From: Dethiobacter sp.
GTDB taxonomy: Bacteria; Bacillota; Dethiobacteria; Dethiobacterales; Dethiobacteraceae
DNA: 64,000 bases
Reading direction: 5' to 3'
Assembly (NCBI GenBank): GCA_018333635.1
Contig: JAGXTL010000060.1
Span: forward strand, 1-64,000
Under the pieces are notes generated by a model. It saw nothing but the letters and a program-made list of their open reading frames with translations, searched no databases and had not been told where the DNA came from. Position numbers and translations under genes: made by a program. Shown in pieces: positions 14,685 to 25,913 of the stretch. Within the stretch, counting starts at the first letter, position 1. Every line of letters starts with the position of its first letter.

Positions 14685-14723
14685 ATAAAATCAGGGCATT
14701 CCCGTTTGTCGGAAATACCCTGA
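14685..14723 (-). terminator. Terminator after the cold-shock gene
   Basis: On the minus strand TCAGGG...CCCTGA (14691-14723, partly extended by TTTCC/GGGAA pairing) is followed by TTTTATG. It lies 25 bases past the csp stop. Confidence 0.75.
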
Positions 14724-14748
14724 CTTGCTGACAATTGTTTAGTTTATA

Positions 14749-14949
14749 CTAGATACGAACAACGTTGGCCGCTTGCGGTCCACGATTGCCCTCTACTACA
14801 TCAAACTCAACTTCTTGTCCTTCCTCCAGAGACTTGAATCCTTCGCTCTGGATTGCGGAAAAGTGCACAAACACGTCTCCACTGCCATCATTTTTCTCGA
14901 TAAAACCAAATCCCTTTTCTGCGTTAAACCATTTTACTCTTCCTTGCAT
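14749..14949 (-). CDS. csp: Cold-shock protein, CspA family
   Basis: A 66-residue single cold-shock domain with RNP1 KGFGFIE and RNP2 VFVHF, beginning [13 protein letters not shown]. These small beta-barrels bind single-stranded RNA/DNA and act as RNA chaperones. The gene stands alone, with its own promoter about 120 bases upstream and its own terminator. The long untranslated leader is typical of csp mRNAs that sense temperature through folding. The ribosome site AGGAGG precedes the ATG by a short spacer. Confidence 0.97.
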
Positions 14950-15066
14950 GTGTTAAAGGCCTCCTACAAAATAATTTGCATCAAAAAGAAGAATACGTCA
15001 AAACTCTCAGCCACTTCAAGAAGTCAAACCGTTCGAGCGTTTCATTCTTTTTAACCACTGCTGATA

Positions 15067-20884: not shown

Positions 20885-22180
20885 CTAATTTGATGCAAGA
20901 ATTTGACCTGTGTGTCCCTGGACAAACACCGTTTGTCCGTGCTTAAACAAAAAAACCCACGCCGGCTGCGCCGTGCCATGTCCGACATAGTAAGCCGGAT
21001 ATACTTGTATAAGCCTGCCGACAGTAGTCTCTGCTTTTAAATACTCGGCTACAGACTGAACCGCCTGCCGCGGATCAATCAACGCTCTCTCTGCGCCAAG
21101 GGGACTGTCCAGCAAAACAATCTGCCGTTTATAATCTATAACCCCACGATCTGAAAAAAGGAGCTTTACTGCCGGCTCGGCAGCCAGCAGACGCATTCCT
21201 TCTTGCACGGAGACCAGAGAAATTGTTTCCACCTGCCCCTGCAGGTGGCTCCCTGGCAGATTTTGCGCGGCAGAAAAAGGATCAACCCACAAGTGGACAG
21301 GCCAGCCCCCCATAAATTGCAGATACTGAGCCGCCCGCCGCAAAGCTTGTCCTAATTCCATGGCTTCCTGTCCAGGCTCACTTTTGGGTGATGTATAGCC
21401 TATTTGACCTGAGGGAAACAAACGTAACCCCCGCTGACCGTCTGTATAAATCACTGCGCCGTCCCGCTCCTCAATCCGTCTGACCATAGCCTGGTTTATA
21501 AAAATGCTGCGCAACAATTTTTCCGTATCCAGCATTTCGGAGCGAATTGAAAATGGGGCAAGATATGGCAAATCCTCAGGAATTAATATTTTATCCTCTC
21601 CATCCACAACCAGGGGCTCCCATTCAGCCGCTGACCATAGACGATGCCGAACCCCACCGGCAAAGGCATTCATAAACTGTTCCTCCCACCCGTCAGGAAG
21701 AAGCGAAAGCTCGGATGTCAGCCAAGAACCTTGATGGTCTTTAAACCAAATCTTCAGCGGCTCTTGAGCAAACCAGGCCACTTCTGCCACCCGCAGTTCA
21801 GCAGGAAGGGAGGCTGACAGCCAAAGACGGGCTTTCACAGGCATCGCAAAGAAGGCATGGGCAGCCGTCCCTGTCATTTTGTGTGGGGGCGCTGCGCCTT
21901 CAGGCGGCTTGCCGGCGTGAATAAGTTCGAGCAGCAGCGCCCATGCGGTGCTCTGCCCTTCATCCCAAGGCTCAAGAACCCACCAGGCATCTTCTGCGCC
22001 TAAGCGCAAGCGTGGGACAAGTTGCTCCGTAGGCGGCCGCAATTCACCAAAAGTCAAGCGCTCATAGGCAGGCGGCAACGCAGTTTCCAGCGCGGGTTGC
22101 CCAAACAAGAGACGCCCGGTCAGGATGATACTTATGCCAACCAATAGGAGCAGTAAGCCTGTTTTTACGCGCTCTCGCAC
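20885..22180 (-). CDS. yycH: Two-component regulatory protein YycH/WalH
   Basis: A 431-residue protein with a single N-terminal membrane helix (TGLLLLLVGISIILTGRLL) and a long extracytoplasmic region, matching YycH in size, topology and position. It modulates the WalK sensor from outside the membrane. The GTG start at 22180 lies inside the 3' end of walK (16-base overlap) with GGCGGAGAAGA upstream, so translation is coupled to the kinase. Sequence conservation in this family is low; identification rests largely on gene order. Confidence 0.85.
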   Translation of the reverse strand: MRERVKTGLLLLLVGISIILTGRLLFGQPALETALPPAYERLTFGELRPPTEQLVPRLRLGAEDAWWVLEPWDEGQSTAWALLLELIHAGKPPEGAAPPHKMTGTAAHAFFAMPVKARLWLSASLPAELRVAEVAWFAQEPLKIWFKDHQGSWLTSELSLLPDGWEEQFMNAFAGGVRHRLWSAAEWEPLVVDGEDKILIPEDLPYLAPFSIRSEMLDTEKLLRSIFINQAMVRRIEERDGAVIYTDGQRGLRLFPSGQIGYTSPKSEPGQEAMELGQALRRAAQYLQFMGGWPVHLWVDPFSAAQNLPGSHLQGQVETISLVSVQEGMRLLAAEPAVKLLFSDRGVIDYKRQIVLLDSPLGAERALIDPRQAVQSVAEYLKAETTVGRLIQVYPAYYVGHGTAQPAWVFLFKHGQTVFVQGHTGQILASN

Positions 22181-23973
22181 TCTTCTCCGCCCCCTTCCGC
22201 CTGCGCATACGGCAAGCTAATCCGCACTTCTGTCCCCGACTCCGGTTGGCTTCTCAGCGCAATTGTGCCTCCATGTGCCTCAACTATCTCCCGCGCAATC
22301 GCCAGCCCGAGGCCTGTACCGCCAAAATCTCGGGAACGCGCCTTATCCACCCGATAGAAACGCTGGAAAACCCGCTCTACATCCTCAGGCGGAATCCCGA
22401 TACCATTGTCTTTAACAAGAATTGTGATCACAGAGCCCCTTTCCTCCAACAAGACAGCAACTTTCCCATCTTGGGCGGTAAATTTAAAGGCATTCTGAAT
22501 CACATTAAGCAGCACCTGCTTCATTTTATCTCTATCAAAACAGTAACATAGCGGTCTCTCAGGCAGCGTTACAAGCATGCCCGGCCGCTCTGCTCCGAAC
22601 TCAATTTCCAACTCGTTAACTACTTCCAGCACCAGTTCATCTAAGCGTTGGCAAAAAAGACGCCAGGCAACCTGCTGAAAATCTAATTGTGACAGCACCA
22701 GCAAGTCTTTCACCAGGCGAACCATCCGCTCCGTTTCTTTTTCCATTGTTGTAAGAAAGGAAAAACACGTATCCGTTTGATACATTGCTCCTTCCAAAAG
22801 TGTTTCGGTATAGCTTTTCAGTGTAGTAAGAGGCGTCCGCAATTCATGGGACACATTGGCCACAAATTCCTGTTGAATACGAACGAGTTCCCGTTCCTTG
22901 CTGATATCGTGCAAAATAATCAACACACCTGAGGATAGGTCGCAAGCTGAGTGTTCCTGAGTGTGGAACGGCACATAACTTGCCAAAATAGTCCTTTTAT
23001 GAGGCGCCAGGAAAATTTCACGGCTCTGCTGCTTGCCGTTGTTTAGTAGCTCCGCCAAATCAACCTGGGCCAGCAGCTGCCTCAGCACTGCCGCCGGTGG
23101 CTCTTCCCCGGGAGAAAGTTCCAGTAAGCTGTGACCTGTTGGATTTAAATGTACTACCTTCCCTTCACGATCCAAAGCGACAATGCCATCTGTCATATGG
23201 CTGAGAATTGCTGCCATCTTTCCTTTTTCCGATGACATTTCCTGCAATGTAGCATCTAACTGCAAAGAGAGGTAATTAAACATTTCTCCAAGGCGTCCTA
23301 TCTCATCGTGAGAGCGCACATCAATTTTTTGGCTAAAATCGCCGTGAGCAATTTGAGCCGCTTTGGCGGTAACTTCCTGAATAGGGCCGGTAATGCTTCT
23401 GGCTAAGAAAAATCCGAGCAAAACTGTTACGCCAATGACTAAGACGGCGCCTGTGAGAAAAATGAGCTGGATTTCCCGCAGTGTAGCATATAGGGGTTCC
23501 AGTGAGCCGCTTAAATAGACAACACCCATCGTTTTCTCGCCGGATCGCACCGGTAACGCCAGATGCTTTACCCGTTCTCTCGTCTCCGGATTAAGACGTA
23601 TTTCACCGCTGCGGCTGCCGGTTAGAGCACGGGTAATTTCTTCCTGAATAATCCGTTGTCCCTGCAGCCCGGCTTCCGTGCGAGAAGAAGAAATGAGCCG
23701 CCCGAAACTGTCCAGCACCATAATATCAGTAATCCCGGCATGGCGGGAGTATTCCAGCACAAGTCCGTCAATAGCGCTGTTTTCATCTGTGCCCGTCAAA
23801 TATCGTTCCAGAAAGCTGGCCAGAAGTAATCCCTGAGCCTCCAAATTGCGCGAATATGTACGGAGATAGTACTGCTCCAGCGACTGAGTGAGAAAAACAA
23901 CGAAAAACTGCATAGCAAAAAGAATCAGCAGGGCATAAGTAAAGGCAATTTTCCATTGCACACTCCTAAGCAT
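22165..23973 (-). CDS. walK: Sensor histidine kinase WalK/YycG
   Basis: A 602-residue kinase: helix 1 (about 8-30), an external sensor region of about 130 residues, helix 2 (about 170-192), HAMP, PAS (about 250-350), HisKA with His376 in NVSHELRTPLTT, and an ATPase domain with DNGIGIPPEDVERVF and GGTGLGLAI. This layout is that of the cell-wall sensor WalK. ATG 23973 is chosen because AGGAGAGAGAG lies upstream and the helix begins there; the longer frame runs inside walR. It overlaps walR by 8 bases. It phosphorylates WalR in response to wall status. Confidence 0.95.
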   Translation of the reverse strand: MLRSVQWKIAFTYALLILFAMQFFVVFLTQSLEQYYLRTYSRNLEAQGLLLASFLERYLTGTDENSAIDGLVLEYSRHAGITDIMVLDSFGRLISSSRTEAGLQGQRIIQEEITRALTGSRSGEIRLNPETRERVKHLALPVRSGEKTMGVVYLSGSLEPLYATLREIQLIFLTGAVLVIGVTVLLGFFLARSITGPIQEVTAKAAQIAHGDFSQKIDVRSHDEIGRLGEMFNYLSLQLDATLQEMSSEKGKMAAILSHMTDGIVALDREGKVVHLNPTGHSLLELSPGEEPPAAVLRQLLAQVDLAELLNNGKQQSREIFLAPHKRTILASYVPFHTQEHSACDLSSGVLIILHDISKERELVRIQQEFVANVSHELRTPLTTLKSYTETLLEGAMYQTDTCFSFLTTMEKETERMVRLVKDLLVLSQLDFQQVAWRLFCQRLDELVLEVVNELEIEFGAERPGMLVTLPERPLCYCFDRDKMKQVLLNVIQNAFKFTAQDGKVAVLLEERGSVITILVKDNGIGIPPEDVERVFQRFYRVDKARSRDFGGTGLGLAIAREIVEAHGGTIALRSQPESGTEVRISLPYAQAEGGGEECESA

Positions 23974-24664
23974 GACTCTCTCTCCTGATGAAATAGCCGG
24001 CTCCCCGTCTTGTGCGAATGTAACGCGGCTGACTGGGATCTTCCTCAATCTTTTCCCGTAAACGGCGTATAGCCACATCCACAGTTCTTTCATCACCGTA
24101 AAAGTCATAGCCCCAGACTTCTGACAATAACTTTTCCCGGGAAATTACGTATCCGGCGTTATCCATTAAATAGACTAGCAGCAGATATTCCCGATATGTC
24201 AGGTCAATGACCCGACCTGCCTTCAGCACTTCCATTCGTCCGGTATCCACCTGCAAATCATGACAAAATATTAGCTCTGCAGCCACCAGCTCCTTAGATT
24301 GGTTGCGACGCAACTGGGCTTTCACTCGAGCGACAACCTCTCGTGCCGAAAACGGCTTTGTGACATAGTCATCGGCTCCCAGCTCCAGCCCCAAAACTTT
24401 ATCCAACTCCGTGTCTTTCGCCGTCAGCATAATTACGGGCACATTGCTGATTCGCCGGATTTCCCGGCAAGCAGCAAAACCATCCAGCTTCGGCAGCATA
24501 ATATCCAGCAGGATTAGATCCGGTTGCTGCATTTTTGTCTGCCGCACAGCCTGCTCTCCGTCGTAAGTTACAATCACGGTAAATCCTTCCTGCTCGAGAT
24601 TATAACGAAGTATTTCTGCAATAGGCTTTTCATCATCGACTACTAATATTTTTCCCCGCGTCAT
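23966..24664 (-). CDS. walR: Response regulator WalR/YycF
   Basis: About 232 residues: a receiver domain with the acidic pocket VVDDEKP, phospho-acceptor aspartate in LILLDIMLP and conserved TAKD and KPF, then an OmpR-type winged helix (REYLLLVYLMDNAGYVISREKLLSEVWGYDF...ERTVDVAIRRLREK). The last part matches the very conserved WalR recognition helix. ATG 24664 is preferred to GTG 24667 on spacing from GAGGTG. It should activate or repress wall hydrolase genes through TGTWAH-N5-TGTWAH sites; one such site lies 1.1 kb upstream. An 8-base inverted repeat lies just before the gene. Confidence 0.95.
   Translation of the reverse strand: MTRGKILVVDDEKPIAEILRYNLEQEGFTVIVTYDGEQAVRQTKMQQPDLILLDIMLPKLDGFAACREIRRISNVPVIMLTAKDTELDKVLGLELGADDYVTKPFSAREVVARVKAQLRRNQSKELVAAELIFCHDLQVDTGRMEVLKAGRVIDLTYREYLLLVYLMDNAGYVISREKLLSEVWGYDFYGDERTVDVAIRRLREKIEEDPSQPRYIRTRRGAGYFIRRESHA
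24132..24145. promoter_or_regulatory. Noc-binding-site-like 14-mer inside walR
   Basis: On the minus strand ATTTCCCGGGAAAA, 13 of 14 identical to the Bacillus subtilis Noc consensus ATTTCCCGGGAAAT. It lies in codons for a conserved ISREK segment, so coding constraint could explain part of it. The Noc homologue at 44571-45455 has the residues associated with this specificity. Confidence 0.5.
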
Positions 24665-24684
24665 CACGGCACCTCATCACGCTT

Positions 24685-24770: not shown

Positions 24771-25643
24771 TTAACCGGTCCGGTACCAGCGTTCATCCTG
24801 GCCGAACCAAACCTCCCAGCCCTGAAGAAAACTTTCCCTGTCCAAACCATAAATCTGTTGCAGAGCCTGATAGAAGCTCTCGCCCCTCCCCAGCTTATCT
24901 ATGAGCTGATTAAGACCTGCCAGCCCCTGCAGCGTTTCCAGGTAGCTGACCATACTCAATGCCTGTCGGTAAGCAAGCGCCTGGCGAGGGAGCGCATCAA
25001 ACGAGTGATCTAGCGCCTCCAGGGAATAAAGGCGATTTGCCAGGGAACTGTCTGCTTCCAGCCACTCATAGCCTAAAAGATGGTATTCCGTCAGCTGGGC
25101 AAGCCCCTCGCTAAACCAGCGCGGATAATTTCCTTTTGCCCGCAGCTCTAAAGCAAAGTGAGTATATTCATGAATAAGCGGCCCCTGGCTGGCAAAGACA
25201 TACCAACGTTTGGACTCAGGATACCAATGCCACGCCCTGGGCGAAAGAATTTTTATTGTATCTGCCAAATAGACACCTAACGCGCCTGTTTCACGCCCCC
25301 AGCCAAAAGCTTCTTGCAATATCTCTTGGCTGGGGACGACAATGAGCCAGGGCCTTTTTTCCCCGGCTGAATGCGGAATCAACTCAGCAACTCTTCTTAC
25401 AGCCATGTCTGCTTCTTTAGCAATTTTTTCAGCCAAAATTTGGTCTTCCGGTACATAGCGCAGCTGAAAATATTTGCTTTCCAGGGATGACCACGTCAGA
25501 TAATGACGGCGCACAGAGATAAGCGTGGCAGCCTGCCAAACAGCATGAAGAGCATGTGAGAGATACGGGCTGAGCGACAGCAGCAAAATAAGAGCTGAAG
25601 CTATAATTACTCTCTTTCTTATCCCAACTCCACTTACCGGCAA
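24771..25643 (-). CDS. Peptidase MA-family metallohydrolase, membrane-anchored or secreted
   Basis: A 290-residue protein with an N-terminal hydrophobic segment (VIIASALILLLSLSPYL) and a gluzincin active site HEYTH followed by a downstream glutamate in RWFSEGLAQLTEYHLL. That arrangement is the peptidase MA-like group. It would act outside the membrane. A TTG start at 25643 has GGAGAG eight bases upstream; no better start is seen. It lies between an M23 endopeptidase and walR, downstream of a WalR-box promoter, so a role in wall homeostasis is likely but unproven. Substrate unknown. Confidence 0.75.
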   Translation of the reverse strand: MPVSGVGIRKRVIIASALILLLSLSPYLSHALHAVWQAATLISVRRHYLTWSSLESKYFQLRYVPEDQILAEKIAKEADMAVRRVAELIPHSAGEKRPWLIVVPSQEILQEAFGWGRETGALGVYLADTIKILSPRAWHWYPESKRWYVFASQGPLIHEYTHFALELRAKGNYPRWFSEGLAQLTEYHLLGYEWLEADSSLANRLYSLEALDHSFDALPRQALAYRQALSMVSYLETLQGLAGLNQLIDKLGRGESFYQALQQIYGLDRESFLQGWEVWFGQDERWYRTG

Positions 25644-25732
25644 AGCTTACACTCTCCTCTCCCCACCAGCATCATAACAGATTCGCCCTGCTCTTTCACT
25701 GGAAATGGCAAGCATCAAATGCAAAAACAGAC

Positions 25733-25760
25733 AGAAAAAGAACGTGGAAGCCCACGTTCA
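25733..25760 (-). terminator. Rho-independent terminator upstream of the MA-peptidase gene
   Basis: On the minus strand an 8-base stem GAACGTGG/CCACGTTC with a 4-base loop (25759-25740) is followed by TTTTTCTG. It could end the M23 endopeptidase transcript. Because the WalR-box promoter starts upstream of it, it may also act as a leader attenuator. Confidence 0.75.
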
Positions 25761-25798
25761 AGAAAAAAATAGATTAAGAGGGGGTCAAACTTACTCTT

Positions 25799-25831
25799 AT
25801 TATATCGTGCCAATATTACAGACAGATTACA
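25799..25831 (-). promoter_or_regulatory. WalR box with -10 element
   Basis: Minus strand TGTAAT-CTGTC-TGTAAT (25831-25815) matches the WalR/YycF consensus TGTWAH-N5-TGTWAH exactly. A perfect TATAAT (25804-25799) follows 10 bases later. The -35 position has no recognisable hexamer. The promoter reads toward the MA-peptidase and walRK genes. Confidence 0.7.
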
Positions 25832-25913
25832 GAAAGATTGATTTTAGATGACACCGGCACCTAGAAAGCGACAACACGTCACAAAATTCCGTCCGATTCT
25901 GTAGCTAGCATTT

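Follow-up and report, generated by a model that had tools for sequence, protein, structure and literature searches.

The locus

The window analysed, 64,000 nucleotides of DNA from Dethiobacter sp., carries on its minus strand walR/yycF (23,966-24,667; NF040534 is the best family, at a score slightly under its cut-off), followed by walK (22,165-24,108) and then yycH-like and yycI genes. On the other side of walR, on the same strand, is a gene for a Peptidase_MA_2 family protein with the motif HEYTH (24,771-25,643). A preliminary description of the region 5' of the peptidase gene listed a WalR box, a 10-bp gap, a TATAAT and a terminator, with no -35 hexamer, and all of these were located as claimed, again on the minus strand. 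The core operator is an exact match to the WalR-type word, TGTAAT-CTGTC-TGTAAT (TGTAAT-N5-TGTAAT; 25,815-25,831), and is separated by exactly 10 bp, ATTGGCACGA, from the -10 element TATAAT (25,799-25,804). The rho-independent terminator (25,735-25,759) consists of a hairpin at 25,759-25,740 with an 8-bp stem, GAACGTGG/CCACGTTC, and a T tail, and lies ~33-57 nt past a start inferred near 25,792. The operator proved to be longer than the box described, with extra half-sites at a periodicity of 11 bp: a distal TGTCAT (25,848-25,853, minus strand) stands 22 bp (2 x 11) 5' of the first TGTAAT, and a weak middle half-site, ATCAAT (25,837-25,842, minus strand; consensus AATAAC/AATAAA), is 11 bp from either neighbour.

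Taken on its own the box is no better than chance. In the 64-kb window 0.32 matches were expected and at least one occurred in 26 of 100 shuffles, while the whole-genome motif scan that had been proposed gave 14 matches against 11 with the reversed pattern and was uninformative. The companion scan of relatives did find the box conserved, and it is because of this conservation, not the count of the bare motif, that the box is significant. Relatives with the same gene order that lack the box had been envisaged; the opposite was found, the box being intact in 17/17 same-family loci that retain the operator-terminator unit. A functionless co-occurrence of box-like, -10-like and terminator sequences would fit the random expectation for the bare box, but with the sequence, spacing and covarying structure of the unit conserved in 85 genomes this explanation can for practical purposes be set aside.

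A predicted small RNA gene

Across the family loci conservation goes beyond the box itself and is greatest in the transcribed stretch. This corresponds to a small RNA (sRNA) gene of ~58 nt (25,735-25,792, minus strand; start placed 7 nt past the -10 element), supported by the covariance models R1 and R2 and by class-wide conservation. Alignments and folding show an invariant, single-stranded C-rich seed, GTTTGACCCCCTCTT (25,776-25,790, minus strand), followed by an A/U-rich linker, AATCTATTTTTTTCTT (25,760-25,775, minus strand), and the terminator. An alignment of 17 loci reads AAG-GTTTGACCCCCTCTT-A/U-rich-ACGTGG..CCACGT-TTTTTT, with 34 of ~62 columns invariant, and the predicted fold amounts to little more than the terminator hairpin, the C-rich stretch being unpaired or almost so. 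When 35 diverse copies were compared the seed was unchanged and the terminator stem, which covaries between families, was altered by compensatory pairs; double changes were found in 8/8 pairs, with a covariation score of 0.634 compared to at most 0.226 for slid structures. No ORF with a start codon is conserved across the alignment. A short ORF, TTG-ACC-CCC-TCT-TAA, was considered and rejected, as it occurs in some families only, is absent from family f3 and has no ribosome site. The unit has its own promoter, its own terminator, no conserved ORF and an autonomous position, as expected of a trans-acting sRNA with intrinsic termination.

A pattern scan detected the unit in Dethiobacter and related MAGs of the class Dethiobacteria. 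The model R1, built from 17 same-family sequences, matched 85 of the 98 genomes of the class and 46 of its 49 genera; E-values from R1 and from the broader model R2 are rough. Among the covariance model hits, L110, L111, L265 and L266 look like chance matches, and L263 and L267 have a related seed with a different promoter layout. A further locus (L113, G141:C100) holds an sRNA-like unit with the seed GACTCCCCCTTTAATATAAA and without a TGTAAY operator. Outside the class the unit was found directly 5' of walR in Natranaerobius thermophilus and two relatives, and conservation of the sRNA probably extends beyond the Dethiobacteria. A cmscan search of the window and relatives against 4227 Rfam families gave no relevant family at the curated threshold and no match to the RsaE/RoxS, FsrA or LhrC models, and miRNA and SurA hits scored far under the cut-off. 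The same search matched the Rfam cspA thermoregulator at 14,690-15,015 of the window (minus strand; 84.5 bits, gathering threshold 78), in a non-enteric Bacillota genome, and this match may reflect cold-shock coding sequence. As judged from sequence, the unit is an sRNA gene not listed in Rfam, distributed class-wide and preceded by a WalR-type promoter.

Promoter geometry

The combination of box and -10 element at fixed spacing gave 66 matches in the 98 class genomes, against none for the reversed pattern. When the 109 distinct regions 5' of the seed word were examined, 97 had two half-sites N5 apart (about half of the remaining 12 are not sRNA genes), and the distance from operator to -10 was exactly 10 bp in 97/97 scorable copies. 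An extra half-site 22 bp upstream is present in most copies, with a weak one at 11; at position -22, most of 95 distinct promoters have TGTAAT, TGTAAC, TGTCAT or TGTTAC. It had been proposed as one option that the box replaces the -35 as an activator site, and the geometry agrees, being of the activator type, with no -35; the site is kept in relatives that share the gene order.

All except eight of the 66 strict matches overlap the sRNA by coordinates. Five of the eight stand 5' of an M23 wall hydrolase gene in other genera, and one stands 5' of an sRNA variant with another seed. This variant (L204, G048:C118) is a paralogue with an intact WalR-type operator and a seed altered to TTTGACCTCCTTTT, which suggests seed diversification. 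M23 peptidase genes of family f3 with the sRNA-type operator (L197-L201; N-terminus KRCFTIM) are likely to be direct WalR targets.

The regulator

The promoter carries TGTWAH-N5-TGTWAH, exact and conserved, as expected for the WalR regulon, and walR of the window is the likely regulator gene. WalR and WalK are encoded in nearly all of the sRNA-bearing genomes, where the WalR helix is RTVDV(T/A)(V/I)RRLREK; a second regulator, RR2, has RTVDVHIRHLREK. All genomes examined carry further OmpR-type regulators, and other OmpR-family proteins of the genome could recognise this word. The possibility has to be weighed that the main reader of the operator is a different member of the OmpR/PhoB family, PhoP-like or RR2, and that the RNA reports phosphate or some other signal. 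The WalR and PhoP words are mutual reverse complements, and one of the 14 genomic 'WalR boxes' is a pstS Pho box read backwards; moreover, the unit is far from walR in Bacillus relatives. However, within this clade the repeats in front of pstS are TTAACA/TTTACA (TT(A/T)ACA-N5-TT(A/T)ACA) in the opposite sense, which is the PhoP word. The Pho regulon was rejected as the explanation on account of this distinct box, and a difference from the Pho box is what would be expected of a WalR-regulon operator. A scan of 20 relatives gave no match for pstS in nine, the majority of which retain the sRNA. The M23 hydrolase genes preceded by the sRNA-type operator and the adjacency of the unit to walR in two GTDB classes also argue for WalR, and another regulator as the main reader is considered unlikely.

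One fragmented MAG of the same genus (G003) bears on this question. In it walRK-yycHI is deleted between the peptidase gene and murA, the M23 gene is cut to its last 29 residues, the peptidase gene is frameshifted and the sRNA unit is gone, yet RR2 is kept. This co-loss is suggestive of a link between WalR and the RNA, as far as one fragmented MAG allows. The region concerned (L386, G003:C11, 2948-5537) lacks walR, walK, yycH and yycI, and may be a natural instance in which a system that is usually essential has been lost. In several other MAGs without the sRNA the contigs end at walK (G020, G025) or WalK is missing; G020 and G025 were rejected as walRK-lacking genomes as their contigs stop at walK. 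A few genomes (e.g. G038) have WalR and no detected RNA.

Independence from the neighbouring genes

The preliminary description took the unit as a possible attenuated leader of a peptidase-walRK operon, in which transcripts from a WalR promoter would sometimes read through the terminator and WalR would thereby regulate itself. It is true that several families and Natranaerobius have the unit on the walR strand, 100-150 bp ahead of that gene, and simple readthrough would need no alternative antiterminator fold. Several observations run counter to this. The peptidase gene has a separate promoter, CCAGTGAAAG..TGTTATGAT (25,671-25,702, minus strand; 9/12, extended -10), which lies 3' of the terminator, is conserved in 17/18 loci as CCAGTG..TGTTAYRAT and is retained in G003 despite the absence of the WalR unit there. 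At L019 an insertion of ~160 bp lies between the unit and this promoter. A scan of 60 relatives found the peptidase itself in 18, which all belong to a single family, whereas the unit is class-wide; families f4, f5 and f13 have the unit near walR and no peptidase. In family f3 the unit lies far from walR among unrelated genes and its neighbours vary (among them, as identified by sequence, birA-bioY, glutamate dehydrogenase, valS and a UspA-like gene), some genomes having two copies, while walR occupies another site, next to M23 and walK genes of its own. TATAAT-like promoters 5' of walR are also present in f4 and at L250. Finally, what is most conserved is the single-stranded seed, not an alternative helix, and no fold was predicted much beyond the terminator. 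The unit is therefore an independent gene and not a leader, as it is separable from walR and the peptidase gene and the latter has its own promoter; an attenuated leader is considered quite improbable. The feedback of WalR on its own operon through the peptidase that had been suggested found no specific support. Where the RNA gene is directly 5' of walR, readthrough from time to time could contribute to walRK expression. Base pairing of the RNA might also provide a feedback on walRK. The site described is real, and its meaning is different from and larger than the one first given.

Relatives beyond the class

The broader model R2 gave weaker hits in other Bacillota, including the trxB-yvcI gap of Bacillus-type genomes, B. 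pumilus among them. When 60 offsets of TGTAA upstream of the -10 were compared in the distant hits, the four best were 0, 11, 22 and 33, and since these 11-bp offsets persist although the operator was not used in the search, the distant hits are likely to belong to this system or to a closely parallel one. In the Bacillus-type genomes (L249, L251, L252, L253, L256 and L258) a C-rich sRNA-like unit with 11-bp half-sites lies between trxB and a nudix gene (yvcI), far from walR, and its seed differs from that of the Dethiobacteria RNA in ending in CCCCCTTTT. RNA-seq of B. licheniformis revealed an independent 52-nt transcript, BLi_r2828, in the trxB-yvcI gap (PMC3871023), and an independent transcript from the same gap was reported in B. 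amyloliquefaciens (PMC4634765). These RNAs come from the intergenic gap in which the R2 hits lie and are likened to them by location, not by sequence. It may be proposed, tentatively and with some doubt, that across much of the Bacillota WalR has this RNA as its chief direct output, and has had it since ancestral times. The RNA would then be an arm of WalRK comparable to RsmY/Z under GacA, with its gene next to walR in the Dethiobacteria and in Natranaerobius and between trxB and yvcI in Bacillus, and would be lost together with walRK.

Proposed mechanism and targets

The favoured reading, which is considered probable, is that the box serves as the operator for an autonomous gene that encodes a WalR-activated, C-rich, base-pairing sRNA of ~58 nt. 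Phosphorylated WalR would bind the tandem half-sites 11 bp apart and contact RNA polymerase from where a -35 would otherwise stand, so activating transcription, and the transcript would stop at the intrinsic terminator, ahead of the peptidase gene. The RNA, with its unpaired C-rich 5' segment GUUUGACCCCCUCUU, A/U-rich linker and terminator hairpin, would act in trans, most likely on mRNAs, to whose G-rich Shine-Dalgarno regions it would base-pair, and the outcome would be a negative post-transcriptional arm for WalRK. That the seed should pair with such sites is expected by analogy with csRNAs and LhrC.

Attempts to identify targets gave single candidate sites and no enrichment. Duplex energies calculated for 747 genes (0.89 Mb of the genome) showed a complementarity to Shine-Dalgarno regions no higher than for permuted C-rich seeds, and full-length complements of the seed before ATG were rare in the 98 genomes and in large part represented the RNA gene read backwards. 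Single strong seed-complement sites were found at yidC, gyrB and a SpoIID-domain gene in the window, at a GDPD-like gene in G096 and at a NikR-like gene (L312). The site in G096 (L223, G096:C143:615-631) is in the Shine-Dalgarno region of a glycerophosphodiester phosphodiesterase-like gene, TCAAGAGGGGGTCAAAGATG, which is a long complement of the seed and makes the gene a candidate target. An RNA whose C-rich, anti-Shine-Dalgarno-like segment titrates a protein or a component of the ribosome, instead of pairing with mRNA, would account for the lack of enriched targets among the 747 genes and for a class-wide seed invariance that exceeds what is expected of a seed tracking varied targets. However, base-pairing sRNAs are usually built as a seed followed by an A/U linker and a terminator, and C-rich seeds of the UCCC type in low-GC Gram-positives (LhrC, RsaE, FsrA and others) act at Shine-Dalgarno sites (PMC4132741). 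Titration is accordingly held to be an unlikely mode of action compared to pairing.

Comparison with known systems

The closest parallels are with sRNAs under other two-component systems. The CiaR-dependent csRNAs of streptococci (CiaRH) have promoters with a hexamer-N5-hexamer operator 10 bp before the -10, which are the strongest of the regulon (PMC3091779, PMC8186281). The Dethiobacteria RNA resembles them in being a terminated small RNA with an OmpR-family-type N5/N10 promoter and multiple copies in some genomes. It differs in its TGTAAY half-sites, the CiaR operator TTTAAG-N5-TTTAAG not being found at the unit, in its longer tandem operator and in a different, usually essential two-component system, and there is no demonstrated sequence relation between the two. 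The LhrC sRNAs of Listeria (LisRK) are multicopy, C-rich and act on Shine-Dalgarno regions (PMC4132741). The present RNA is likewise C-rich, multicopy and under an envelope two-component system, putatively WalRK, but has one linear seed in ~58 nt in place of several UCCC sites in loops. LhrC is ~110 nt in length. RsaE/RoxS and FsrA of the Bacillales are also sRNAs with C-rich seeds, which block translation starts, and differ in sequence, structure and regulator; RoxS is under an OmpR-family regulator. The known WalR regulon promoters of B. subtilis, S. aureus and C. difficile share the TGTWAH-N5-TGTWAH word and there too include those of wall hydrolase genes, whereas the target here is a small RNA. 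The WalR regulon papers examined list protein-coding genes alone as targets and name no WalR-driven sRNA.

WalRK is conserved among Gram-positive bacteria, where it maintains wall homeostasis and is usually essential; the sequence evidence suggests that its control of the cell wall also acts via a regulatory RNA. The sRNA forms a new family for RNA databases, with a clear seed, structure and promoter, and can be tested in cultivated Natranaerobius thermophilus or at trxB-yvcI in Bacillus. A conserved sRNA with a WalR-type promoter would extend WalRK by a post-transcriptional arm and offer a candidate explanation of its pleiotropic effects.
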